The position numbers and the translations under genes are program-made. Under the pieces are notes generated by a model. That model saw nothing but the letters and a program-made list of their open reading frames with translations, ran no database searches and was not told where the DNA came from. Shown in pieces: positions 4,247 through 20,899 of a stretch of DNA of 64,000 nt (its first letter is position 1; every line of letters begins with the position of its first letter). The DNA is taken from assembly GCF_916618915.1 (NCBI RefSeq), contig NZ_CAKAKE010000001.1, positions 1,674,001-1,738,000 of the forward strand. The letters run 5' to 3'. The stretch is from Stenotrophomonas sp. Marseille-Q4652 (GTDB taxonomy: Bacteria; Pseudomonadota; Gammaproteobacteria; Xanthomonadales; Xanthomonadaceae).

Positions 4247-4247
<1 letters not shown>

Positions 4248-5509
4248 TGAGCGCACTGCTCGACTCCCTGGCCAGCGGCTTCAACGGCAGCGACGAGCGT
4301 CGCGCCGTGCTCGACGCGGCCCTGCGCGACGGCCTGCCCGGTCCGCGCACCGAAGCCTGGAAGTACACCTCGCTGCGCCAGCTCGAACGCCGCAGCTTCG
4401 CGCCCGCGCCGATGGCGCCGGCGGCCATCGAAGCCAGCCTGCTGGCCGGCATTCCGGCGCCGCGCCTGGTGTTCGTCAACGGCCGCGTCAGTGATGCCCA
4501 CAGCGACCTGTCCGGCCTGCCGGCCGGTGTGCAGGTCGAGCCCCTGTCGGCCGCGCTGGCCGCCGGCGAGCAGGCCGCGCGCTTCCTCGGCCGTCGCTAC
4601 GAGCGCGCCGACGAGATCTTCGCCCGGCTCAACGCTGCGCTGGCCGACGAGGGCGTGCTGGTGCGCATGGACGAGGCCGTGCAGGCCGACGCACCGCTGC
4701 ACCTGGTGTTCGTCAGTGCCGAGACCGGCAGCGACCTGGCCTGGCACCACCGCCACCTGGTGGAACTGCGCGCCGGCGCCAGCCTCGGCGTGGTCGAGCA
4801 CCGCCTGCATGCCGGCGATGCCGCCCACCTGGACAACACCGTGGTTCACGTCCACCTGGCCCAGGGCGCGGTGTTCAAGCACGCCCGCGTGCAGGCCGAG
4901 GGCCCGCGCCAGACCAGCCTGCTGCGCACCGATGCGGTGCTGGCCCGCGATGCGCAGTACCTGCGCGTGGACCTGGAGCTGGGCGCCGCCCTGAGCCGCC
5001 ACGAGCTCAACGTGCGGCTGGAAGGCGACAACGCCCGCCTGGCCGCCAATGGCGTGCTGCTCGGCAACGGCCGCCGCCATGTGGACACCCGCCTGGGCAT
5101 CGAGCACATCGCCCGCGACACCAGCGCCGACCTGCTGTGGCGCGGAGTGGCCGCCAACCGCAGCCGCGTGGTGTTCCATGGCGGCATCCACATCCGCGAA
5201 GGCGCCGATGGCACCGACGCCAACCTGTCCAACAAGAACCTGCTGCTGTCGGCCGATGCCGAGATCGATACCCAGCCGACGCTGGTGATCGATGCCGACG
5301 AGGTCAAGGCCGCGCACGGCGCCACCGTCGGCCAGCTCGACGCCAATGCGCTGTTCTACCTGCGCTCGCGCGGCCTGCCGCAGGCGCAGGCGCAGGCACT
5401 GCTGAGCGCGGCGTTCTGCCACGAGCCACTGGCTGCCGTGCCGGCGGCACTGCGCGAGCAACTGGCGCGCCAGCTTGACCGCGCCCTGTCCGAAGCAGGA
5501 GTCGCCTGA
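4247..5509 (+). CDS. sufD: Fe-S assembly protein SufD
   Basis: A 420-residue SufD, the SufB paralogue that completes the SufBC2D complex and is needed for iron acquisition. The N-terminal PGPRTEAWKYTSL block and the C-terminal LFYLRSRGLPQAQAQALL segment are typical. It is translationally coupled to sufC through a 1-base overlap and to sufS by a TGATG junction at 5509. High GC and strong codon bias make long spurious reverse-strand frames here. Confidence 0.95.
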
Positions 5510-6774
5510 TGAACCTGTCCACGCCGCGACCGCACGGCCCGCACGGCCCGCACGAGCTGGCCCCGGACTGGGCCCGGGTGCGCCTGGACTTCCCGCTGCT
5601 GATGCGCGAGGTCCACGGCAAGCCGCTGGTGTACTTCGACAATGCCAACACCGGCCAGAAGCCGATGGAGGTCATCGCAGCGCTGGACGAGTACTACCGC
5701 CGCTATAACGCCAATGTCAGCCGTGCGGTGCACGCGCTCGGCACCGAGTCCACCGAGGCCTACGAAGGCGCTCGGGCCAAGCTGGCGCGCTTCCTCAACG
5801 TACGGGGCAGCGAGCTGGTGCTGTGCAGTGGCACCACTTTCGCCATCAACCTGGTGGCGTATTCGTGGGCGCTGCCGCGGCTGAAGGCCGGTGACGTGAT
5901 CCTGGTGTCGCGCATGGAGCACCACGCCAACATCGTGCCGTGGCAGCTGGTGGCCCAGCGCACCGGTGCGACCATCCGCGTGGCCGGGATAACCCCGGAC
6001 GGCGCCCTGGACATGGACGCGCTGCGTGCGGCGATGACCCCGGAGGTCAAGCTGCTGGCCGTGGCCCACGTCTCCAACGTGCTGGGCACGGTCAATCCGG
6101 TGCGCGAGATCTGCCGCGAGGCGCGCAAGCGCGGCATCGTCACCGTGGTCGACGGCTCGCAGGCCGCGCCGCACCGCAAGATCGACATCCCCGCCATCGG
6201 CTGCGATTTCTACGCCATCACCGGCCACAAGATGTGCGGCCCGACCGGCACCGGTGCACTGTGGGCGCGCCGCGAGCACCTGGACGCGATGCCGCCGTTC
6301 CTCGGCGGCGGCGAGATGATCAAGGAAGTCAGCTTCGACGGCACCGTGTTCAACGACGCGCCGCACAAGTTCGAGGCGGGTACGCCGAACATCTCCGGCT
6401 TCATCGGCCTGGGCGTGGCGGTGGACTACCTGGAATCGCTGGGCATGGAGCACGTGGAAGCACGCGAGGCCGAGCTGCTGGCGCACTTCACCGAGGAGCT
6501 GCAGAAGGTCGACGGCCTGCGCATCTTCGGCACCACGCCGGACAAGGCTGCGGTGGTGTCCTTCCTGGTCGAAGGCGCGCATGCGCATGACCTGGCCACC
6601 CTGCTCGACCTGGAAGGCGTGGCCGTGCGCTCGGGCCAGCACTGCGCCCACCCGCTGCTGCAGTACTACGGCGTGGCCGCCACCTGCCGCGCCTCACTGG
6701 CCTTCTACAACACCCACGAGGAGATCGAGCAGTTCATCGTGGCGTTGAACAAGGTGCGCAAGCTGCTGGGGTGA
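5509..6774 (+). CDS. sufS: SufS-type cysteine desulfurase
   Basis: A 421-residue PLP enzyme that removes sulfur from cysteine and passes the persulfide to the scaffold. The PLP lysine is K241 in ITGHKMCGPTGTG, and the catalytic cysteine C379 lies in RSGQHCAHP. The N-terminal motif is YFDNANTGQKP rather than the commoner YLDNAATSQKP. The N-terminus has a short HGP repeat (residues 9-15) made by a 9-bp tandem DNA repeat. It is the last gene of the operon; no sufA or sufE lies here. A strong terminator follows. Confidence 0.96.
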   Translation: MNLSTPRPHGPHGPHELAPDWARVRLDFPLLMREVHGKPLVYFDNANTGQKPMEVIAALDEYYRRYNANVSRAVHALGTESTEAYEGARAKLARFLNVRGSELVLCSGTTFAINLVAYSWALPRLKAGDVILVSRMEHHANIVPWQLVAQRTGATIRVAGITPDGALDMDALRAAMTPEVKLLAVAHVSNVLGTVNPVREICREARKRGIVTVVDGSQAAPHRKIDIPAIGCDFYAITGHKMCGPTGTGALWARREHLDAMPPFLGGGEMIKEVSFDGTVFNDAPHKFEAGTPNISGFIGLGVAVDYLESLGMEHVEAREAELLAHFTEELQKVDGLRIFGTTPDKAAVVSFLVEGAHAHDLATLLDLEGVAVRSGQHCAHPLLQYYGVAATCRASLAFYNTHEEIEQFIVALNKVRKLLG

Positions 6775-7888: not shown

Positions 7889-7916
7889 TGCGAACGCGAA
7901 TGGTTCTCAATAAACT
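7889..7916 (+). promoter_or_regulatory. Fur box overlapping a promoter (Fiu operon)
   Basis: GCGAATGGTTCTCAATAAA (7896-7914) resembles the proteobacterial Fur box. It lies in and around the spacer of a sigma70-like promoter, TTGCGA (7889-7894), 16 bp, TAAACT (7911-7916). Iron-bound Fur would block RNA polymerase. The site precedes a small ORF and the Fiu-like receptor. Confidence 0.65.
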
Positions 7917-8413: not shown

Positions 8414-8490
8414 CGGTCTTCCAACGCCCTTTCTCCGCGGCTCCCGAGCCACGGCAGCCCCTGCTTTGACCCTTTTTGCCGGAACCCTTC

Positions 8491-10797
8491 ATGTCCCACA
8501 TCAAGACCCGCAAGTACGCCCCCCGCGTCCCCATGCTCGCCACCGCCACGCTGGCCGCCGGCTTCTCGCCGCTGGGCGCGCTCGCCGCCGAGGTCGACTC
8601 CGCCAGCGCCAGTGCCAGCGCCACCGCCATGGGCGATGCCACCGAGCTGGACAAGGTCGAGGTGCGGGGCAGCTGGTTTGCACCGTCCTCGCAGAAATTC
8701 ACCGCGACGCTGCTGGACACCCCCAAGTCGGTGTCGGTGGTGGGGGAGCAGACGATCCAGGAAATCGGCGCGACCACCCTGGTCGATGCGCTACGCATGG
8801 TCCCGGGCATCACCTTCGGCGCCGGCGAAGGCGGCAACTCCACCGGCGACCGCCCGTTCCTGCGTGGCTTCGACGGCCAGAGCAACATGTTCGTCGATGG
8901 CCTGCGCGACGTCGGCAGCCAGACCCGCGAAGTATTCGCGCTGGAACAGCTGGAAGTGGTCAAGGGCCCGAGCTCGGCCTACGGCGGTCGTGACTCCGGC
9001 GGTGGCAGCATCAACCTGGTCAGCAAGACGCCCAAGCTCAAGGACGAAACCAGGATCAGCATGGGCGTGGGCACCGACAGCTATGCCCGCGGTACCGTTG
9101 ACGCCAACCATGTGCTCGGCGACGGCATCGCCGCACGGGTGAACCTGCTCAAGCACGACAGCGATATCGCCGGCCGCGACGAGGTCAACAACAGCCGCTG
9201 GGGCATCGCCCCGTCGATCGCCTTCGGCCTCAATGGCCCGCTCCAGCTCATCGCCAGCCACTACCACCTGGAGACCGACGACCTGCCCGATGCCGGCGGC
9301 TTCCCGTATGCCGATCCGGTGGCGAAAACCACCACTGGCCGCCCGCTGGTGCCGGACCGCAACAACTTCTACGGGCTGGTCGACCGTGACTTCCAGCGCA
9401 CCCGGGCCGACATCTCCACGCTCGACGCCAGCTATGACCTGGGTGGCCACAAGCTGCGCAATGTCGCCCGCCTCGGCAACACCAGCAACGACTACCTGTG
9501 GACCCAGCCGGACGACAGCAAGAACAACCCCAACCTCTACGGCACCCTGTGGCGCCGTACCAACAGCCGCGCCATCGATACGAAGACCTTCGCCGACCAG
9601 CTGAGCCTGACCGGCGCCTTCCAGACCGGCGCGCTCCGCCACAGCTACAGCGCTGGCGTTGAGTACAGCGAGGAGAAGAGCAGCAAGGGCAGCTACGTGC
9701 TCGGCGGGGGCGGCACCAACAATCCGCTGACTGGCAACCAGGCCTGCGCGACCACCGGCGCGGCCACCGGCTACAACTGCACCGATTTCGCCAACCCGAA
9801 CCCGCACGACCCGTGGGCGGCCACCCATCCGGTGACCCGTAGCGACAAGGCGCTGGATATCGAGCAGACCACCGTCACCAAATCGGTCTATGCCTTCGAC
9901 ACCATTGAGCTGAGCGAGCGCTGGCTGCTCAACCTCGGCCTGCGCTGGGACGACTTCGATACCGAGCAGGTCACCCCGGTGGCCGGCGCCGCGCCGACGG
10001 TGATCGGCAATGCCGACACCTTCCTCAACTACCAGGCGGGTGTGGTGTTCAAGCCCACCGCCAATGGCAGCGTGTACCTGTCCTGGGGCACCTCCTCCAC
10101 GCCGCCCGGCATGGACAGCGGCGAAGGCAACGACGCCATCAGCGCGGCCAACGCCGAGCTCGAGCCGCAGCAGACCCGCAACCTGGAACTGGGCACGAAG
10201 TGGGACCTGCTGGCCGGCCGCATGAACCTGACCGCCGCCATCTTCCACACCGAGATGGACAACGCCCGCGTCACCATCGACAACGGCACCACCCGCAATG
10301 CCGGCCGGAAGGTGATCGAAGGCGTCGAGCTGGGTATCAACGGCCAGCTGACCCGCAACTGGAACGTCTCGGCCGGCTACACGTACATGCAGTCCGAGCT
10401 CAAGGACAACGGCTACGTCTGTTCGATCTCCAGCCGCACCGGCTGCCCGGCCCCGGGCGTGTGGGTGGTCTCGCCGAACAACGGCAACGAATTCCCCAAT
10501 ACCCCGAAGCATGCGGCCACGGTGTGGAGCACCTACCGCTTCCCGTTCGGCCTGGTCGTCGGCGGCGGCGCCAGCTACGTCGACAGGCAGTACGGCGATG
10601 CGGCCAACAGCAAGTGGATCCCGGCCTACACCCGCTGGGATGCGATGGCCAGCTACGCGGTGCAGGACAACATCAGCGTGCAGCTCAACGTGCAGAACCT
10701 GACCGATCGGGTCTACTTCACCAAGGCCTACTCCTCGCACTACGCGACCATCGCCCCGGGCCGCTCGGCCACGCTGTCGTTGAACGTGGCGTTCTGA
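8491..10797 (+). CDS. fiu: TonB-dependent catecholate siderophore receptor, Fiu type
   Basis: A 768-residue outer-membrane receptor. The start ATG 8491 begins a signal peptide that ends near residue 36 (GALAAE). The plug domain follows (LDKVEVRG through LVDALRMVPGITFGAGEGGN and VVKGPSSAYGGRDSGGGSINLVSKTPK), then the 22-strand barrel ending in the aromatic ATLSLNVAF. The GRDSGGGSINL form of the plug and the downstream PiuC gene point to the Fiu/PiuA class, which takes up ferric catecholates and monomeric dihydroxybenzoyl compounds. A Fur box lies upstream. Confidence 0.9.
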   Translation: MSHIKTRKYAPRVPMLATATLAAGFSPLGALAAEVDSASASASATAMGDATELDKVEVRGSWFAPSSQKFTATLLDTPKSVSVVGEQTIQEIGATTLVDALRMVPGITFGAGEGGNSTGDRPFLRGFDGQSNMFVDGLRDVGSQTREVFALEQLEVVKGPSSAYGGRDSGGGSINLVSKTPKLKDETRISMGVGTDSYARGTVDANHVLGDGIAARVNLLKHDSDIAGRDEVNNSRWGIAPSIAFGLNGPLQLIASHYHLETDDLPDAGGFPYADPVAKTTTGRPLVPDRNNFYGLVDRDFQRTRADISTLDASYDLGGHKLRNVARLGNTSNDYLWTQPDDSKNNPNLYGTLWRRTNSRAIDTKTFADQLSLTGAFQTGALRHSYSAGVEYSEEKSSKGSYVLGGGGTNNPLTGNQACATTGAATGYNCTDFANPNPHDPWAATHPVTRSDKALDIEQTTVTKSVYAFDTIELSERWLLNLGLRWDDFDTEQVTPVAGAAPTVIGNADTFLNYQAGVVFKPTANGSVYLSWGTSSTPPGMDSGEGNDAISAANAELEPQQTRNLELGTKWDLLAGRMNLTAAIFHTEMDNARVTIDNGTTRNAGRKVIEGVELGINGQLTRNWNVSAGYTYMQSELKDNGYVCSISSRTGCPAPGVWVVSPNNGNEFPNTPKHAATVWSTYRFPFGLVVGGGASYVDRQYGDAANSKWIPAYTRWDAMASYAVQDNISVQLNVQNLTDRVYFTKAYSSHYATIAPGRSATLSLNVAF

Positions 10798-11570: not shown

Positions 11571-12248
11571 ATGCTGCTGCACATCCCCAACGTGCTTTCC
11601 CCCGAACAGGTCGCAGAGTTCCGTCGCAGGCTCGAGAGCGCCAGCTGGACCGACGGGCGCGAGACCGTGGGCCACCTCGGTACCCACGCCAAGCGCAATG
11701 AACAACTGCCGGAGAGTTCGCCGCTGCGCCGCGAGCTGGGCGAGACGGTGCTGCTGGCGCTGGCCAGCAACCCGCTGTTCTTCAGCGCCGCGCTGCCGCT
11801 GAAGTACCTGCCGCCGCGCTTCAACCGCTACACCGGCGGCGGCACCTACGGTTTCCACGTCGATGGCGCGGTGATGAACCTCGCCCAGGGCGAACAGCTG
11901 CGCTCCGACCTGTCCTGCACGCTGTTCCTGTGCGGACCGGAGGAGTACGAAGGCGGCGAACTGGTCATTGCCGACACCTACGGCGAGCACGAGGTGAAGC
12001 TGCCTGCGGGGGACCTGATCCTCTACCCGTCCAGCAGCCTGCATCAGGTCCGGCCGGTGACGCGCGGCGCCCGCCTGGCCTCGTTTTTCTGGGTGCAGAG
12101 CATGGTCCGCGACGACGGCCAGCGCCGCATGCTGTGGGAACTGGACACCGCCATTGGCCGCCTGCGCCAGACCGGCGCCGACGACGGTGCGGTACTGCAG
12201 CTGACCGGCCTGTACCACAACCTGCTGCGGCAGTGGGCCGACACCTGA
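11571..12248 (+). CDS. piuC: Fe2+/2-oxoglutarate-dependent PKHD-type dioxygenase
   Basis: A 225-residue PiuC/YbiX-family hydroxylase. The iron ligands H96 and D98 lie in FHVDGAV and the distal H158 in [14 protein letters not shown], with R168 positioned for 2-oxoglutarate. The protein is cytosolic by sequence. The family is regularly Fur-controlled and adjacent to Fiu/PiuA receptors; its substrate is not settled. It follows the Sel1 gene by 9 bp, so the three genes are an operon, ended by a good terminator. Confidence 0.92.
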
Positions 12249-12355: not shown

Positions 12356-12384
12356 TTGCTGTTGCGACTGATTCTCACTAAGAT
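12356..12384 (+). promoter_or_regulatory. Fur box inside the promoter of the CirA/FepA-like receptor
   Basis: TTGCTG (12356-12361), a 17-bp spacer and TAAGAT (12379-12384) form a sigma70-like promoter. TTGCGACTGATTCTCACTA (12362-12380), a Fur-box-like sequence, fills the spacer. The receptor start is at 12497. Confidence 0.65.
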
Positions 12385-12496
12385 GCGAGCCCTTGTCGGG
12401 AGATGAATGCGGTCACGACCGCCCGCTCCCGTATCGCTTGCCTGGATGGTCAGCCGTCGCCCACCTCCAGCTCCAACTGCTGGGACCCCAATCTCG

Positions 12497-14965
12497 ATGA
12501 CTGCTCGCTCCCCTAACTTTCCCGCCCATACCGCGCTGGGCCTGGCCCTGGCCTGCGTGCTGGCCGTACCGCTGCCGGCCCTGGCCGCGCCCGAAATCGA
12601 CACCCAGACCCTGGACAAGGTGGTGGTGACTGCCTCGGGCTTCGAACAGAAGCTCACCGATGCGCCGGCCTCGATCTCGGTCATCACCGCCGAGGAACTG
12701 GTCTCCCGCCCCTACATCACCCTGCTCGACGCCGTCCGCCAGCTCGAGGGCGTGGACATCGGCGAGACCCGTGACAAGACCGGCCAGGGGACGATCTCCA
12801 TGCGCGGCATGGGCAGCGACTACACCCTGATCCTGATCAACGGCCGCCGCCAGAACAACCACGGCGACATCTATCCGAACAGCTTCGGCGGCAACCAGTT
12901 CAACCACATCCCGCCGCTGGACGCGATCGAGCGCATCGAGGTCATCCGTGGCCCGATGTCCACGCTGTACGGCGCCGATGCAATGGGCGGCGTGATCAAC
13001 GTGATCACCAAGCGCGAACTGGACAGCTGGTCCGGCTCGCTGACGGCCGGCCGCACCTTCGAGACCAACAGCGACTACGGGGACGACAGCACCGTCGATG
13101 CCTTCGTCACCGGCCCGCTGGTGCCCGGCAGGCTCAACCTCAGCGCCCGCGCCAGCCGCTACCAGCGTGATGCCTCCAATCCCACCTACGGCGATGTCAT
13201 CGATCCGGCCGGGGAAACCCATAGCCGTGCACTGGGCTTTGGCGGCGGTGGCAAGACCGTGGACAACACCAACAGGTCCGCCGGCCTGACCCTGGCCTGG
13301 TACCTGTCCGACAGGCAGACGCTGACCGTCGACGTGGACACCTCGCGCCAGCAGTACGACAACGCGATCAGGATCAACGATGCGGGCGTGGAGGAATACC
13401 CCGTCGGCACCGTCGACAACTACGGCGCGATGCTGCGCGTGGGCAACAACGGCCGCATCGAGCCGCGCGCCGGTTATGCGCCGCAGCAGGAATTCAGCCG
13501 CGACAACTGGTCGATCAGCCACGAAGGCGTCTGGAGCTTCGGCAACTCGCTGGTGACCCTGTCGCGCGTGGAGACCGACAACAGCGGCCGTACCCTCCCC
13601 TACACCGTGACCGAGCGCCAAGGGCTGCAGCAGCTGTGGAATACGGCCTGCGCCAACCTTGGCGGCAGCATCAATGCCGGCTACTGCGCACCGTCGGCGG
13701 CAATGGGCTATCGCAACGCCAATGCCTGGAACAACCTGTCCGAGGCGCAGAAGCTGGCGGTGATGCAGGCCAACCTGTCGGCTGACCAGTTCACCGCATT
13801 GCAGGGTTACCTGCCGCGCCCGCAGCGCACCCTGGAAAGCAGCCAGTACACGCTGGATGCAAAGCTCGACATCCCGTTCCAGGCCGCCGGCGAGCACACC
13901 GCCGTGGTCGGCGCCCAGATCATCCGCGGCGAGCTGGTCGATGGTGTGTTCGGCATGGAAACCAGCCACCCGGGCGGCAAGCAGGAACACAACATGTTCT
14001 CCGTATTCGCCGAGGACACGTGGAAGATCAGCGCCCCGTTCGCGCTGACCGGCGGCCTTCGCTACGACAACCACCAGGTTTTCGGTGGCCACGTCAGCCC
14101 GCGCCTGTACGGCGTCTACACCCTCGGTGACCGCTGGACGCTGAAGGGTGGCGCCAGCACCGGCTTCAAGACCCCCAAGACCACCCAGCTGTACGACGGC
14201 GTGGTCGGCTTCGGCGGCCAGGGCACCAGCCCGCAGTTCGGCAATCCGGACCTGCAGCCGGAAACCAGCACCTCCTTCGAGCTGGCCGTGTACTGGCATC
14301 ACGCCGACGGTCACAGCTTCGATGCCACCGCGTTCCGCAACGTGTTCGATGACAAGATCAGCTCCCAGCCCTGCGGTGCCGGCCTGCTGGTCGAGTGCGC
14401 CGCGCCGGGCGACTACGCGCAGATCGGTTACGGCCCTTCAGCCACGCGCATGGTCAACATCGACAAGGTGGTGACCCAGGGCGTGGAGCTGGCCGGGCAC
14501 TGGCAGTTCACCCCGTCCTTCAGCCTGCGCGGCAACTACACGTACACCGATTCGGAGCAGCGCAGCGGCGCGGAAAAGGGCCTGCCGCTGGGCGACGTCG
14601 CCCGCCACATGGCCAACGCCACCGCCAGCTGGCAGCTCAGCGAGGCGGTCAACCTGTTCCTGACCAGCGAGACCCGTTCCAGGCGCTTCGAGGGCGTGTC
14701 GGCGATCAGCGGGCAGCCGCAGTACTACCGCGACTACACCGTGTTGCACCTGGGCGGCTCGTGGGCGATCAACCGGTTCGTCACCCTCAACGCGCGCATC
14801 AACAACCTGCTCGACCGCGACTTCACCACCTACTCGGCCGAGTTCAACGACCTCGATGGCGACGGCGTGTACGAGGACGACACCGACGAAGTGATCTACC
14901 GCGACCACTTCAACAACAAGGACAAGGCGCGCAGCCTCTGGATGAGCGTCAACGTGCGCTTCTGA
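12497..14965 (+). CDS. TonB-dependent receptor, CirA/FepA-like ferric siderophore receptor
   Basis: An 822-residue outer-membrane receptor. The start ATG 12497 gives a signal peptide ending near ALAAPEI (about residue 31). The plug holds KVVVTASGFEQ, LLDAVRQLEGVDIGE, SMRGMGSDYTLILINGRRQ and IRGPMSTLYGADAMGGVINVITK. The barrel ends in SLWMSVNVRF. Near residues 785-790 a late loop contains DLDGDG followed by acidic residues, a Ca2+-loop-like motif. The plug resembles colicin I and enterobactin receptors. Iron uptake is supported by the upstream Fur box. Confidence 0.88.
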   Translation: MTARSPNFPAHTALGLALACVLAVPLPALAAPEIDTQTLDKVVVTASGFEQKLTDAPASISVITAEELVSRPYITLLDAVRQLEGVDIGETRDKTGQGTISMRGMGSDYTLILINGRRQNNHGDIYPNSFGGNQFNHIPPLDAIERIEVIRGPMSTLYGADAMGGVINVITKRELDSWSGSLTAGRTFETNSDYGDDSTVDAFVTGPLVPGRLNLSARASRYQRDASNPTYGDVIDPAGETHSRALGFGGGGKTVDNTNRSAGLTLAWYLSDRQTLTVDVDTSRQQYDNAIRINDAGVEEYPVGTVDNYGAMLRVGNNGRIEPRAGYAPQQEFSRDNWSISHEGVWSFGNSLVTLSRVETDNSGRTLPYTVTERQGLQQLWNTACANLGGSINAGYCAPSAAMGYRNANAWNNLSEAQKLAVMQANLSADQFTALQGYLPRPQRTLESSQYTLDAKLDIPFQAAGEHTAVVGAQIIRGELVDGVFGMETSHPGGKQEHNMFSVFAEDTWKISAPFALTGGLRYDNHQVFGGHVSPRLYGVYTLGDRWTLKGGASTGFKTPKTTQLYDGVVGFGGQGTSPQFGNPDLQPETSTSFELAVYWHHADGHSFDATAFRNVFDDKISSQPCGAGLLVECAAPGDYAQIGYGPSATRMVNIDKVVTQGVELAGHWQFTPSFSLRGNYTYTDSEQRSGAEKGLPLGDVARHMANATASWQLSEAVNLFLTSETRSRRFEGVSAISGQPQYYRDYTVLHLGGSWAINRFVTLNARINNLLDRDFTTYSAEFNDLDGDGVYEDDTDEVIYRDHFNNKDKARSLWMSVNVRF

Positions 14966-15009: not shown

Positions 15010-15076
15010 TGGCGCGGCCTGCGGCGGTGCGGCCGGGCGCAGTGTAGAGTGCCGCCACCTTTCCGCCGTGCCGACG

Positions 15077-16159
15077 ATGAGCCGACCCGTCTTCCACTCC
15101 ATCCAGGTGCTGCGCGGCCTGGCCGCCCTGCTGGTGGTGCTGTTCCACCTGCGCATCGTCGAGGGCAAGTACGGTCAGGGGCCACTGCTGCTGGGTACAC
15201 CTGTGGGCTATGCCTACAACGGCGTGGACCTGTTTTTCGTTCTCTCGGGCTTCGTGATGACCACCATCGCCGCCGGGAGCTACGGCTCCCCGCGCGAAGC
15301 CGGGCGCTTCCTGCTGCGCCGTGGCTGGCGGATCCTGCCGCTGTACTGGCTCTACACCACCGTGGTGCTGGTGCTGACGCTGGTGGCACCGGGCATGGCC
15401 AACACTTCCTCTCACGAGCAGAGCGTCCTTGCCTCATACCTGCTGTGGCCGCAGGCCGAGCTGCCGCTGTTGACCGTGGGGTGGACGCTGACCCACGAGG
15501 CGTTCTTCTACCTGCTGATGGCCGTGGCCATCGCCTTCGCGCGTGCACGCCACCTGCCATGGCTGCTGGGCGGATGGGCCGTGGCCACCGTGCTCGCGCA
15601 TGCCTGGCCCCCGGCCAGCAGCACGCCCTGGGCGGCGGTGCTATCCAGCCCGCTGTCACTGGAATTCATCGCCGGCGCGTTCGTTGGCCTGTACTGGCGG
15701 CAACTTCCCGCGTGGCTGGCGCTGCCCGTCATGGCGCTGGGCCTGGCCATCTTCCTCGGCGCGATGGTGTGGTTCGCCGGTCCGCCGGCACAGGACGTAC
15801 CGGTGCTGCAGCGGGCGCTATGGTTCGGCCTGACCTCGAGCCTGCTCGTACTCGGTGCGGTGCGCTGGGAGCAGCAGGCCCGGCCACGGTTTCCACGGGT
15901 GCTCACGCTCATTGGCGACAGCTCGTTCTCGCTGTACCTGGGCCATGTGTTCGTGATCTCCGCCGCCGGTCGCCTGTGGCAGTACAGCGGCTGGAACAGT
16001 GCTCCGTGGCAGCACGCTGCCTTCGTGCTGGTTGCGGTCGTTGCCAGCGTGGTCGTGGGCTGGGTTTCGTGGCGGTTGCTGGAACTGCCATTGCAGCGCA
16101 TGGCCCGGCGTCGGGAGGCGGGCGAGGTAGCCGCGACTCCGACCGCCCGCGCCGGCTGA
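15077..16159 (+). CDS. Acyltransferase 3 family integral membrane protein
   Basis: A 360-residue protein of the OafA/YrhL acyltransferase 3 family, with about ten hydrophobic helices. The N-terminus [17 protein letters not shown] and the following [13 protein letters not shown] motif are diagnostic; the histidine of LFH and the [13 protein letters not shown] segment are the conserved functional parts. These enzymes O-acylate extracytoplasmic glycans such as LPS, peptidoglycan or exopolysaccharide; the target is unknown. Start ATG 15077 was preferred to an upstream GTG. It sits between iron genes without obvious functional link. Confidence 0.88.
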
Positions 16160-16194: not shown

Positions 16195-16223
16195 TTGCGA
16201 ATCATTCTCATTGGTGGTGTAAT
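16195..16223 (+). promoter_or_regulatory. Fur box on the promoter of the PepSY-ApbE redox cluster
   Basis: TTGCGAATCATTCTCATTG (16195-16213) is the best Fur-box match in the window. TTGCGA (16195-16200), 17 bp and TGTAAT (16218-16223) make a possible sigma70 promoter on top of it. The first gene begins at 16257. Confidence 0.75.
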
Positions 16224-16256
16224 CAGCGGCCCGCATACAGCTTCAAGCGAGTCCTC

Positions 16257-16904
16257 TTGGCACCCGCCCGTCCTCCTGCCGCCGCTGCCGTCCAGCAACA
16301 ACCCAGCCGGGGCTTCTGGCTGCGGACCCTGCACCAGTGGCACTGGATCAGTTCGGCGGTCTGCCTGGTCGGCATGCTGCTGTTCGCCATCACCGGCATC
16401 ACCCTCAACCACGCCTCGCGCATCGAGGCCAGCCCGCAGGTGGATACCCGCCAGCTGGAGATGCCTGGCGAGCTGCTTGAGGCCCTGGGCGGGCGCGAGG
16501 ACGGCAACGCGCCGCTGCCGCGCGAGACCGTGCGCTGGCTGGACCGCGAGCTCGAGGTCTCGATCGGCCGCCGCCCCGCCGAGTGGTCGGCCGACGAGAT
16601 CTACCTGTCGATGCCCGGCCCCGGCGCCGATGCCTGGCTGAGCATCGACCGCGGGACCGGCGCGGTGGAATACGAAAGCACCCGTCGCGGCTGGGTGTCC
16701 TACTTCAACGACCTGCACAAGGGACGCAACGCAGGACCGGCCTGGGGCTGGTTCCTGGACATCTTCGCCGTGGCCTGCCTGGTGTTCTGCATCACCGGCC
16801 TGTTCCTGCTGCACCTGCATGCGCGGCAGCGCCGCATGACCTGGCCGCTGGTCGGCCTGGGCCTGGTGGTGCCGCTGCTGATCGCCCTGCTCCTCATCCA
16901 CTGA
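16257..16904 (+). CDS. PepSY-associated membrane protein, putative electron-transfer subunit
   Basis: A 215-residue protein read from TTG 16257, the only acceptable start because no in-frame ATG or GTG lies between the Fur box and the first helix. After [14 protein letters not shown] comes a membrane helix (about 31-53, ending in TGITLNH), a periplasmic PepSY-like domain (about 60-155) and two further helices (about 163-182 and 194-213). The helix-border histidines (LHQWHW, LNH, FNDLHKG, LLHLH) could ligate haem as in PepSY_TM ferric reductases. It heads a Fur-box cluster. Confidence 0.82.
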
Positions 16905-16926
16905 ACCGCCTTCCCGGAGTCGCACG

Positions 16927-17448
16927 ATGCGCGTCACCCTCACCATCGCCCTCAGCGGCCTGCTGGCCGCCTCCCCGGCCTACGCGGCCACGCTCGACGT
17001 CAATGTCGAGATCCCCAAGCTCAGCGTGGCCGAGTACCACCGCCCGTACGTGGCGATCTGGATCGAAGGCGGCGATGGCAAGTCGGCCGCCGACCTGGCC
17101 GTGTGGTACCAGCAGACCGCCAACGCCGAGGGCCACGGCACCAAGTGGCTGCCCGACCTGCGCCAGTGGTGGCGCAAGAGCGGCCGCAACCTGCAGGTGC
17201 CGGTGGACGGCGTGACCGGCCCGACCCGCCCGGCCGGCAAGCACGCGCTGTCGTTCAGCGACAGGCAGCAGCCGCAACTGAAGAAGCTGCCCGCCGGCGA
17301 CTACACCCTGGTGGTGGAAGCCGTGCGCGAAGTCGGCGGCCGCGAGCTGCTCAAGATTCCTTTCAGCTGGCCGGCCAAGGCCGCCCAGAACGGCCGCGCG
17401 CAGGGTTCGACCGAACTCGGCGCGGTGTCCCTGGCCATCAAGCCCTGA
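16927..17448 (+). CDS. DUF2271 exported protein with an ApbE flavinylation-like motif
   Basis: A 173-residue exported protein with a signal peptide (about 1-20, SPAYA). The rest matches the DUF2271 type: YHRPYVAIWIEGGDGKSAADLAVWY and WLPDLRQWWRKSGR. Residues 94-100 read DGVTGPT, close to the D-G-x-T/S-G-A-T motif to which ApbE joins FMN, making T100 a candidate acceptor. An ApbE gene lies two genes downstream. It is probably a periplasmic flavin carrier. GGAG precedes the start. Flavinylation itself is inferred. Confidence 0.85.
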   Translation: MRVTLTIALSGLLAASPAYAATLDVNVEIPKLSVAEYHRPYVAIWIEGGDGKSAADLAVWYQQTANAEGHGTKWLPDLRQWWRKSGRNLQVPVDGVTGPTRPAGKHALSFSDRQQPQLKKLPAGDYTLVVEAVREVGGRELLKIPFSWPAKAAQNGRAQGSTELGAVSLAIKP

Positions 17449-17478
17449 TCCCCCTTGCCTGACCCTGGAGCATTCCCG

Positions 17479-18282
17479 ATGAAGCGTTCGCTTGTCCTGG
17501 CCGCCGCACTGGCCGCCGCCCTCCCGTTCGCCGCCAATGCGCACAAGGCCTGGCTGCTGCCGTCGCAGACCGTGATCGCCGGTAGCAATCCGTGGATCAC
17601 CGTCGATGGCGCCATCTCCAACGACCTGTTCTATTTCAATCACGTGCCGGCACGCCTGGAATCGGTGGTGATCACCGCCCCGGACGGCAGTAGCGTGCAG
17701 CCGCAGAACGGCGCCACCGGCAAGCTGCGCAGCGTGTTCGACATCGAACTCAAGCAGCAGGGCACCTACCGCATCGCCACCGTCAATGACGGCCTGTCGG
17801 CGACCTACGAGCTCAACGGCGAGCGCAAGCGCTGGCGCGGCACCGCCGCCACCCTCGGCGAGCTTCCGAAGGATGCGAAGAACCTGCAGGTGTCGCAGGC
17901 CGTCGGCCGCGTGGAGACCTTCGTCACCAACGGCAAGCCCAACGACACCGCGCTCAAGCCGACCAACCGCGGCATCGAGCTGGTCGCCGACGGCCACCCG
18001 AACGACCTGTTCGCCGGCGAGGAATCCACCTTCCGCGTGCTGGTGGACGGCAAGCCGGCCGCGGGCCTGGAGTTCGAGATCGTGCGCGGCGCCACCCGCT
18101 ATCGCAACGCGCAGGACGAGATCAAGGTTACCAGCGACGCCAACGGGCAGATCCGCGTGACCTGGCCGGAAGCCGGCATGTACTGGCTGGAAACCGGCAC
18201 CGAGGACGACAAGACCTCGGTGCCGCAGGCCAGGCAGCGTCGCCTCAGCTACGTGGCCACGCTGGAAGTGCTGCCGCAGTAA
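17479..18282 (+). CDS. DUF4198 exported protein
   Basis: A 267-residue periplasmic protein with a signal peptide to about residue 23 (FAANA) directly followed by [12 protein letters not shown], the N-terminal histidine-containing start typical of DUF4198. An N-terminal histidine after cleavage could bind metal. The C-terminal half ([36 protein letters not shown]) looks like an immunoglobulin-like fold. DUF4198 proteins occur near nickel, cobalt or iron transport genes; here the context is Fur-controlled. Its stop overlaps the apbE start (TAATG). Confidence 0.85.
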
Positions 18283-19298
18283 TGCGACCGGCCGGGAGTG
18301 CAAAACGCTCCCGGCCCGCCTCTCCCATGCCCGATCCCACGCTCGATATCGCCAGCCTCGGTGGCCACACCATGGGCACCCAGTGGAGCGCCCGGCTGGT
18401 GCTGCCGCGGCACCGTGACCTGCATCCGCTGCACGCCGGCATCCAGGCGCAGCTGGACGGAGTGGTCGCGCAGATGAGCACCTGGGAACCGGGTTCGGAC
18501 ATCAGCCGCTTCAACCGCGCCGCCGCCGGCAGCTGGCACGTGCTCCCGGAAGGTTTCTTCCAGGTACTGGAAACGGCGGTGGATGTCGCCCGCCGCAGTG
18601 ACGGCGCGTTCGATCCCAGCATCGGCCCGCTGGTCGCGCTGTGGGGATTCGGCGCGCATGCGCGACAGCCGCGACTGCCCTCGCCCGAGGCGCTGGCCGC
18701 CGTGGCCGCACGCTGTGGCTGGCAGCGCCTGCAACTTCGTGCGGAGAGCCGCCAGGCCCTGCAGCCCGGTGGACTGGAGCTGGACCTGTCGGCGATCGCC
18801 AAGGGTTTCGGCGTCGACCAGGCCAGCCGCTGGCTGCGCGCAGCCGGCATCACCGCCGCGCTGGTCGAGGTCGGCGGCGAACTGCATGGCTACGGCAGCA
18901 AACCCGATGGCCAGCCGTGGCGGGTGCTGGTGGAACCCGGCCCGGACGAGGACGCGCTGGATGCACCGCCGCGCGTGCTCGCCCTGGACGGCCTTGCCGT
19001 GGCCACCTCCGGTGACCGCTGGCACCACCACGACATCGACGGCCAGCGCTACAGCCACACCCTGGATCCGCGCAGCGCCCGCCCGGTGCCACATGCCACC
19101 GCCGCGGTCACCGTCATCGCGCCCACCGCGATGGAGGCCGATGCCTGGGCCACGGTGCTGACGGTGATGGGCGCCGCCGAAGGGCTGGCCTTCGCCACCA
19201 CCCACGACCTGGCCGCTCGCTTCGTCAGCCGCAGCGCCGAGGGCATTGTCGAGACACTCAGCCCGGCCTTCGTCCGTCACCTGGACGCCAGCGCATGA
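18282..19298 (+). CDS. apbE: FAD:protein FMN transferase
   Basis: A 338-residue ApbE-type flavin transferase, which joins FMN by a phosphoester bond to Thr/Ser of extracytoplasmic redox proteins. Visible motifs are GGHTMGTQWSARL, ELDLSAIAKGFGVDQA, the ALVEVGGELHGYG loop, and YSHTLDPRSARPV with the Mg2+ site. No clear signal peptide is visible at either start (ATG 18282 or 18327), which is unusual if it works in the periplasm. It is coupled to DUF4198 (TAATG) and to the reductase (ATGA). The likely substrate is the DUF2271 protein. Confidence 0.92.
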   Translation: MRPAGSAKRSRPASPMPDPTLDIASLGGHTMGTQWSARLVLPRHRDLHPLHAGIQAQLDGVVAQMSTWEPGSDISRFNRAAAGSWHVLPEGFFQVLETAVDVARRSDGAFDPSIGPLVALWGFGAHARQPRLPSPEALAAVAARCGWQRLQLRAESRQALQPGGLELDLSAIAKGFGVDQASRWLRAAGITAALVEVGGELHGYGSKPDGQPWRVLVEPGPDEDALDAPPRVLALDGLAVATSGDRWHHHDIDGQRYSHTLDPRSARPVPHATAAVTVIAPTAMEADAWATVLTVMGAAEGLAFATTHDLAARFVSRSAEGIVETLSPAFVRHLDASA

Positions 19299-20899
19299 GC
19301 CGGCTCACGCCTTCCCGCGCCACGCTGGGCAACCTCGCGGTCATCGCGCTGCTGCTGGTCGCCGCCGCGCTGCTGTTGCGCCTGCACCTGGGCGAGGACT
19401 GGTGGCCGGCGCCGCCACTGGCCCGCCACTGGCAATGGGCCGCCGCCACGCTGGCCGCCTACACGGCCGGCTGCGCGGCACTGTGGTGGCGCAACCGGCC
19501 CCGCGCCGACCAGCTGCCCGATGATGGCCCGGCGCCGGTACTGGTCGCCTGGGCCAGCCAGACCGGCTTTGCCTGCGACCTGGCACAGCGCACCGCCGAT
19601 GCGCTGCGCGCCAGCGGCCTGCCGGTGCGTGTTCGCGCAATCGACAGGCTCGACGCCGCCACCCTTGCCGCCAGCCAGCAGGCGCTGTTCATCGCCAGCA
19701 CCACCGGCGAGGGCGACGCGCCGGATCACGCTGCCGCCTTCGTGCAGGGGCTGATGGCCAGTGCCCTGTCGCTGTCGCACCTGCAGTACGGCGTGCTGGC
19801 GCTGGGCGACCGCAGCTACCAGCACTACTGCGCCTTCGGCCACCGGCTCGACGACTGGCTGCGCCAGCGCGGCGCACACCGGTTGTTCGACACGCTGGAA
19901 GTGGACAACGCCGACCCAGCCACGCTGCGCCACTGGAAGGAGCTGCTTGGCCAGCTCGGCGGTGATGCCAGCGCGATCCCCGACTGGACCGCGCCGCAGT
20001 ACCAGCGCTGGCGTCTGCAGCAGCGACGGCTGCTCAATCCCGGCAGCGTCGGGGCCGGCGTCCACCTCCTGTCGCTGGTCCCGGCCGATGGCGCGCTGCC
20101 GGCGTGGGAAGCCGGCGACATCGCCGAGATCGGCCCGCGCAATGCGCCGCAGCGCGTCGAGCAGTGGCTGGCCGCGCACGCGCTCGATGGCGACACCGTG
20201 GTCGCCGGGCAGCCGCTGCGCGAATGGCTGTCGCGCTCGCATCTCCCGGGCGGGGCCAGCGCCGATCCGGCCGCACTGGTCGCGGCACTGGAGCCGCTGC
20301 CGCACCGTGCCTACTCCATCGCCTCGGTACCGGCCGATGGCGACCTGCAGCTGCTGCTGCGCCTGCAGCGCCAGCCCGACGGCACGCCCGGCCTCGGCAG
20401 CGGCTGGCTGTGCGAACACGCCGTCATCGGCAGCAGCATCGACCTGCGCCTGCGCGGCAATCCCGCCTTCCATCCGCCAGCCCCGACGCAGCCGCTGGCC
20501 CTGGTCGGCAACGGCACCGGCATCGCCGGCCTGCGCGCGCAGTTGCGGGCCCGCATCGAGGCCGGGGCACGCCGCAACTGGCTGGTGTTTGGCGAACGCA
20601 ACGCCGCGCACGACTTCCATTTCGGCGACGAGCTGCGCCAGTGGCACGCCGACGGCTGGATCGAGCGGCTGGACGTGGTGTTCAGCCGCGATGGCGAAGA
20701 ACGCCGCTACGTGCAGCACGCGCTGGCCGCGGCCAGCGACACGCTGCGGCAATGGGTGGACGACGGCGCCACGGTGATGGTGTGCGGCAGCCTGCAGGGC
20801 ATGGCGCCGGGTGTGGATGCGGTGATCGAACAAACCCTGGGCATGGCCGGCAAGGAACAGCTGATCCTGCAGGGCCGCTACCGCCGCGACGTCTACTGA
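19295..20899 (+). CDS. Membrane-anchored flavodoxin/FNR reductase, sulfite-reductase-alpha-like
   Basis: A 534-residue two-flavin reductase. Two hydrophobic helices (about 12-28 and 45-62) anchor it. A flavodoxin domain follows (about 80-220: VAWASQTGFACDLA, IASTTGEGDAP, VLALGDRSYQHYCAFG), then a ferredoxin-NADP reductase part with RAYSIAS for FAD, GNGTGIAGLRA for NADPH and CGSLQGMAPGV near the end. It should carry NADPH electrons through FAD and FMN to the membrane, here presumably into the PepSY/DUF2271 proteins for periplasmic iron reduction. It overlaps apbE by 4 bases and ends the cluster. Confidence 0.9.
   Translation: MSRLTPSRATLGNLAVIALLLVAAALLLRLHLGEDWWPAPPLARHWQWAAATLAAYTAGCAALWWRNRPRADQLPDDGPAPVLVAWASQTGFACDLAQRTADALRASGLPVRVRAIDRLDAATLAASQQALFIASTTGEGDAPDHAAAFVQGLMASALSLSHLQYGVLALGDRSYQHYCAFGHRLDDWLRQRGAHRLFDTLEVDNADPATLRHWKELLGQLGGDASAIPDWTAPQYQRWRLQQRRLLNPGSVGAGVHLLSLVPADGALPAWEAGDIAEIGPRNAPQRVEQWLAAHALDGDTVVAGQPLREWLSRSHLPGGASADPAALVAALEPLPHRAYSIASVPADGDLQLLLRLQRQPDGTPGLGSGWLCEHAVIGSSIDLRLRGNPAFHPPAPTQPLALVGNGTGIAGLRAQLRARIEAGARRNWLVFGERNAAHDFHFGDELRQWHADGWIERLDVVFSRDGEERRYVQHALAAASDTLRQWVDDGATVMVCGSLQGMAPGVDAVIEQTLGMAGKEQLILQGRYRRDVY

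Follow-up and report, generated by a model that had tools for sequence, protein, structure and literature searches.

Gene content and organization of the locus

We analyzed a window of 64,000 nucleotides from the genome of Stenotrophomonas sp. Marseille-Q4652 in which the region 16195..20899 carried a Fur-like box and five genes in series on the forward strand. They encoded a PepSY_TM_like_2 membrane protein, a DUF2271 protein, a DUF4198 protein, the FAD:protein FMN transferase ApbE, and a membrane-anchored flavodoxin/FNR reductase. A preliminary description of this DNA had presented the cluster as a Fur-controlled periplasmic iron reductase with a flavinylated DUF2271 protein, and the five open reading frames (ORFs), their order, and their overlaps (1 base between DUF4198 and ApbE, 4 bases between ApbE and FNR) were as it stated according to the ORF list and Pfam. 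What it had overlooked was the missing export signal on ApbE, while the exported DUF2271 protein, the predicted substrate of this enzyme, had a Sec-type leader.

A search for PF10029 (DUF2271) gave matches in 76 of 149 genomes of the family and in 70 of 398 genomes of the phylum (65 over the cut-off). In addition to the window, 158 stretches with 18 named loci among their sources were scanned using profiles grown from the window proteins. Three of the 159 stretches were removed as duplicates (L035, L041, and L048, of L169, L100, and L118, respectively), leaving 156, in which a species may still be represented by both a named and an unnamed copy. The PepSY-DUF2271 start was found in 126 operons, apbE was present in the operon in 107, and the full five-gene order was seen in 96 of the 156 stretches. 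There was also a second arrangement where DUF2271 was accompanied by one long FNR frame (736-918 aa in 17/17), with ApbE in 16 of the 17 cases. In the one long frame whose domains were checked, it was a fusion of PepSY, flavodoxin, and FNR located beside DUF2271 and ApbE.

The PepSY gene (16257..16904, + strand) had a predicted TTG start and encoded 215 aa (PF16357, E 2e-85 in Pfam) with three transmembrane (TM)-like segments at 31-49, 169-187, and 196-214 according to a TM scan. His29 and His154 were invariant in every aligned row of the 126 operons, and His52 and His215 were kept in at least 95%. By sequence alone, these were histidines of the heme-ligand type near the membrane faces, as expected of a heme-bearing PepSY ferric reductase, and the protein was likely to be a b-type heme electron carrier.

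The DUF2271 gene (16927..17448, + strand; PF10029, E 3e-50) encoded 173 aa, and direct reading of its leader gave a plain Sec-type signal ending in AYA. The structure model of the protein was a beta-sandwich with a mean pLDDT of 75.9 and with low confidence around T100 (block mean 56). Foldseek returned nothing at E <= 0.001 with this model, only weak C2/Ig-like sandwiches, and sequence searches of solved structures gave no significant match for the DUF2271 or the PepSY protein. The DUF4198 protein (17479..18282, + strand; PF10670, E 2e-54) had a leader peptide and conserved His22 and His173 (122 rows), and was a possible metal or siderophore partner.

The apbE gene (18282..19298, + strand; PF02424, E 2e-80) encoded a protein that aligned to the solved ApbE 5mgy (E 5e-64). 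Its Ser243, His259, and Asp287 were at the expected triad places when compared by eye with the triad given in a review (PMC12052999) and with the 5mgy alignment. The combination of the PF02424 fold and the Ser-His-Asp triad predicted an active flavin transferase. The flavodoxin/FNR reductase (19295..20899, + strand) was CysJ-like and contained the Flavodoxin_1 (PF00258, E 2e-27) and NAD_binding_1 (PF00175, E 2e-8) domains, predicted to be cytosolic. Its top NCBIfam match was cysJ, under the cut-off of that family, and the TM scan gave a clear segment at 14-32, with a second, weaker one recognized by eye only.

ApbE without a recognizable export signal

Export signals were judged by eye and by the Kyte-Doolittle maximum over 12 residues (H), with ATG, GTG, and TTG considered as starts. 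The leader of the window ApbE scored 0.04; the protein had no hydrophobic stretch before its core, no TM segment, and neither the signal peptide nor the lipobox of a periplasmic (lipoprotein) ApbE. The corresponding open frame (502 aa) contained no ATG, GTG, or TTG 5' of 18282. The genome encoded one ApbE only, and the genome search at its threshold found no second, exported copy. FMN_bind and NqrB/RnfD were likewise absent from this genome at the search thresholds (DUF3570 was not searched for).

Leader hydrophobicity of ApbE was bimodal in the 107 operons, with 92 proteins at <=1.92 and 15 at >=2.51. Judged by these leaders, a signal-less ApbE is the rule in the PepSY-DUF2271 operon type (92/107). 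In 38 of the 92 cases, 15 or fewer residues preceded the core, and ApbE was also signal-less in 16/16 of the fusion-type clusters. For 45 of the 54 signal-less operons of the family, the genome had no other ApbE, and for 52 of the 54 it had no FMN_bind.

Operons lacking apbE provided a positive control. Sixteen of the 19 PepSY operons of this kind were followed up, which together with two DUF2271-DUF4198 loci made 18 genomes. L112 was omitted, and L038 and L083, which were cut by contig ends, stood outside this set (the genome of L083, G092, was not among the ApbE matches). The best-scoring ApbE encoded elsewhere had a hydrophobic leader in 18/18 genomes (H 1.97-3.42), and the lipobox pattern caught 14 of these 18 proteins.

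One alternative to a cytosolic location is that ApbE gets to the periplasm by an unrecognized route, such as non-classical export or piggy-backing on another protein, and flavinylates DUF2271 there according to the standard scheme. Indeed, the characterized ApbEs are mostly periplasmic, an ApbE expressed in the cytosol failed to rescue an ApbE knockout strain according to the review (PMC12052999), and 15 operons of this very type have an ApbE signal. We nevertheless consider this route unlikely, given the lack of a TM segment or an upstream start codon in the window gene, the 38 signal-less ApbEs with hardly any residues ahead of the core, and a DUF2271 leader without the twin-Arg motif that could carry a folded partner.

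Predicted flavinylation motif of the DUF2271 protein

Residues 94-100 of the DUF2271 protein (17206..17226, + strand) read DGVTGPT, as the preliminary description had claimed, with T100 as the predicted acceptor of FMN. Relative to D-x-x-[S/T]-G-A-[S/T], the Asp, Thr, Gly, and acceptor Thr were kept and Pro replaced Ala. The motif was conserved in the homologues: its last residue was Thr in 106 of 107 operons (one gap) and its first residue was Asp in 105, with the residue before the acceptor being Pro in 63 operons, including the window, and Ala in 43. According to the alignment, DGxTGPT is stably maintained in this part of the family and is not an isolated decayed site. Two loci, L167 and L168, were identical in ApbE and DUF2271 and were both kept; without one of them, the counts become 106 operons, 91 signal-less ApbEs, 105 Thr, and 62 Pro. 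The prediction that T100 is flavinylated gains support from the nearly invariant Thr and from a DUF2271 protein of another species for which flavinylation was demonstrated (PMC8238504). ApbE-DUF2271 fusions occurred at L113, L133, L134, L136, L137, L153, L207, L212, and L213; their motif was mostly degraded (e.g., QGIARPT), and DAMSGPT was kept in L137.

The second alternative, which we find similarly improbable, is that the cytosolic ApbE acts on another cytosolic protein while DUF2271 has no covalent flavin here and GPT is a decayed site. The window motif does depart from the Ala of the described acceptor consensus ([S/T]GA[S/T]; PMC8238504, PMC12052999), and a cytosolic ApbE of Klebsiella modifies a soluble fumarate reductase, as reported in the review (PMC12052999). 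However, decay is difficult to reconcile with the conservation of Thr and Asp described above and with GPT being stably kept in dozens of operons of the family. Other substrates were also hard to find: the window genome had no detected FMN_bind or NqrB/RnfD, and a motif of this kind, present in 89/92 DUF2271 proteins of the signal-less operons, was rare or absent in their partners (PepSY 0/92, DUF4198 0/90, ApbE 0/92, and FNR 1/83).

Proposed maturation route

Our preferred explanation, which we regard as probable, is that the locus belongs to the PepSY-like flavinylation type and serves as an iron-starvation operon, in which the cytosolic ApbE loads FMN on DUF2271 before Sec export. Release of Fur would allow the operon to be expressed under iron starvation. 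The membrane-anchored NAD(P)H flavodoxin/FNR would then deliver electrons to the heme-bearing PepSY protein, and from there they would reach the FMN bound covalently to DUF2271 in the periplasm. The flavinylated protein would in turn reduce Fe(III) or a ferri-siderophore brought by the neighboring TonB-dependent receptors, with DUF4198 probably binding the metal or the complex. We infer the whole path from NADPH through FNR, heme, and FMN to Fe(III), including Fe(III) as the acceptor. Its first steps are supported by the fusion of PepSY, flavodoxin, and FNR in another lineage.

For the maturation itself, ApbE would draw on the FAD that is abundant in the cytosol and attach FMN to T100 of the DUF2271 precursor ahead of Sec threading. 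The FAD supply to ApbE was called obscure in a 2025 review (PMC12052999), and cytosolic flavinylation would dispense with the still unexplained requirement for FAD in the periplasm. According to the same review, a seven-residue tag suffices for ApbE, and for substrates bearing rigid organic tails a SecYEG opening of up to 2.4 nm was reported (PMC6028853). It was also possible that most PepSY-DUF2271 operons follow the same scheme, where FMN is put on the unfolded Sec precursor and carried through SecYEG, the DUF2271 signal is tuned to slower export, and GPT arose only with a cytosolic ApbE; we are evenly divided on whether this generalization holds. We rejected Tat export of flavinylated DUF2271 in the case of the window and of most relatives, as the window leader had no twin-Arg and the "RR" present in a few leaders lacked the rest of the Tat consensus.

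Higher leader hydrophobicity has been associated with co-translational export (PMC9594773), and a slower, post-translational export would allow ApbE time to act. The DUF2271 leaders were less hydrophobic when ApbE was signal-less (medians 1.93-1.97 vs 2.28), which fits the slower mode. The trend was the same by phylogenetic generalized least squares (PGLS) for 102 of the 107 operons (p 2.3e-4; with lambda 1, p 0.012), and the DUF4198 leaders used as a control showed no effect by PGLS (p 0.59).

A number of observations weighed against flavinylation before export. Besides the 15 operons with an exported ApbE, the nine ApbE-DUF2271 fusions had leader-like N-termini (H 1.72-2.73), and both make periplasmic flavinylation plausible within the family. 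Among the 28 ApbE matches in the 18 control genomes, six (in five genomes) lacked a leader, and H did not exceed the cut of 2.0 applied in the rest of the analysis for two of the 18 best-scoring trans ApbEs (1.97 and 2.00). Cytosolic ApbE substrates may also have escaped detection. Pro before the acceptor differs from the Ala consensus, and an Ala-to-Val replacement in another protein reduced flavinylation to about half (PMC12052999). With respect to the leaders, the DUF4198 control was not flat without tree correction and went in the opposite direction (p 0.03 and 0.02). With an exported ApbE in trans, DUF2271 leaders were no more hydrophobic than those of the signal-less set when scanned over 12 residues (p 0.5) or 15 residues (p 0.45); at 15 the paired difference was gone too (p 0.75), and the two sets separated only at scan lengths of 8 and 10 and by paired differences at 8 to 12. 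Moreover, only two changes of the signal trait were seen on the ApbE tree, and thus its correlations rest on few events.

Leader hydrophobicity was therefore set aside as a proof of the route, being supportive in one comparison and contradictory or neutral in others; its support for flavinylation before export is suggestive but mixed and not decisive. Pro was found in the motif of 0/15 operons with an exported ApbE and 63/92 with a signal-less one. A statistical link between the two was dropped because a quick tree showed two changes of the signal and six of Pro, with only one or two independent pairs.

Fur-like box and iron-related neighborhood

The Fur-like box TGCGAATCATTCTCA (16196..16210, + strand) was located 46 nt 5' of the TTG start codon of the PepSY gene. 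It matched 11 of the 14 fixed positions of the 7-1-7 consensus TGATAATnATTATCA, a score that 100 shuffles of the same upstream region failed to reach. Only 13 of 19 positions matched the E. coli 19-mer, and a scan of the window with that 19-mer at <=3 mismatches gave no match. A pattern matching the box with 0 mismatches was composed after viewing the site and was not independent of it. Thus, the "strong" Fur box of the preliminary description was strong in the form seen in the relatives but not by the E. coli standard. A box with at least 9/14 matches was found 85-127 nt upstream of the PepSY core, a range picked after the box positions were known, in 64 of 126 operons; 200 shuffled sets averaged 4.8 such operons, with a maximum of 11. 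Operon by operon and without the position rule, 56 of 126 reached p <= 0.05, and 33 of 126 had the lowest possible p of 0.01. Judged by its sequence, the box was a putative Fur site at the promoter, as in members of the Fur regulon, and the previously claimed Fur control was supported by its conservation across operons and by an electrophoretic mobility shift assay (EMSA) in Caulobacter (PMC3751524). The text of a Stenotrophomonas Fur paper (PMC9769818) contained none of the operon's terms.

A TonB-dependent receptor gene of the CirA/IrgA-like type was located upstream of the operon (12407..14965, + strand), although none of the 25 listed NCBIfam matches reached its cut-off. A Fur-like site (12364-12379) was just 5' of this gene. 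Of 125 operons (the window included), 33 had a receptor of this family at most 3.5 kb upstream. The site at 12364-12379 and another one at 7896-7911 each had two mismatches to the site-derived pattern, which gave five matches against 2.1 expected. An Acyltransferase_3 gene (15068-16159) separated the receptor from the operon; it looks like a local insertion, a similar protein being found only in L033 among the scanned stretches.

Further upstream there was a Fiu-like siderophore receptor (8476-10797) that scored below the Fiu cut-off and above that of TonB-dependent siderophore receptors. At 0.8 kb past it was a gene (11571-12248) for a PiuC/YbiX-type Fe(II) dioxygenase. The two genes resembled the co-conserved receptor/dioxygenase pair of Caulobacter chelation resistance (PMC12004947). 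The sufD and sufS genes at 4247-6774 placed iron-sulfur assembly near the iron-uptake genes.

The least probable alternative is that another metal, e.g., Cu(II), or another acceptor takes the electrons instead of Fe(III), with only indirect iron regulation, as a PepSY_TM protein of another subfamily was proposed to be a copper reductase (PMC13038864); the Fur box, the nearby siderophore receptors, and the EDTA and iron phenotypes of the Caulobacter counterpart argue against it.

Relation to known systems

The closest described counterpart was the cluster CC_3059-3063 (CCNA_03155-03159) of Caulobacter crescentus, which by annotation has these five genes in identical order. It was strongly induced by iron limitation and its promoter was bound by Fur in EMSA (PMC3751524). 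Mutants of this locus were less fit with EDTA (PMC12004947), and this transposon fitness supports the iron role given to the cluster in the preliminary description. The first gene was labelled a transporter in 2013 (PMC3751524) and a PepSY-family gene in 2025 (PMC12004947). Eight related loci (L043-L050, from Brevundimonas, one Caulobacterales, and one unclassified source) had SSAT motifs in 7/8 cases (one gapped) and a signal-less-looking ApbE in 8/8.

PepSY-like clusters with ApbE, DUF2271, and DUF4198 were described by Meheust et al. (eLife 2021; PMC8238504), who proposed iron reduction. One DUF2271 protein was flavinylated in that work, and a Thr-to-Ala replacement abolished the modification. 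The window locus agrees with their definition, having a PF03929/PF16357 PepSY-like protein within five genes of ApbE, FMN-bind, DUF3570, or DUF2271, and it shares with their systems PepSY_TM/PF16357, ApbE, DUF2271, and DUF4198. It differs in the motif, TGPT instead of the described [S/T]GA[S/T]. In its available sections, the eLife paper treated flavinylation as extracytosolic and did not discuss signal-less ApbEs in such clusters.

The cytosolic ApbE of Klebsiella pneumoniae likewise has no signal peptide and flavinylates its partner (PMC12052999). However, that substrate is a soluble fumarate reductase, whereas the presumed substrate in the window has an export signal. The ferri-siderophore and ferric reductases FoxB and VciB share the PepSY membrane type and the iron role, and FoxB has conserved heme histidines. 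In contrast to the three TM-like segments of the window PepSY protein, FoxB is described as having two PepSY domains and a TM bundle of four helices.

Thus, the iron-reductase scheme of the preliminary description is not new and is mostly a rediscovery, since a route of this kind had been put forward in 2021. The cluster itself is of a described type, and the part worth testing is the maturation route, in which a signal-less ApbE serves an exported substrate. The available literature contained no statement that the ApbE of DUF2271 operons is signal-less or that flavinylation precedes Sec export; the eLife supplement lists per-gene signal predictions, so the raw fact may be there. Surveys that keep only ApbEs with a signal peptide would miss most of this operon type (92/107). 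If flavinylation before export is true, the question of periplasmic FAD would fall away for a large group of these operons, and a natural substrate with a covalently attached redox cofactor would be established as cargo of Sec.

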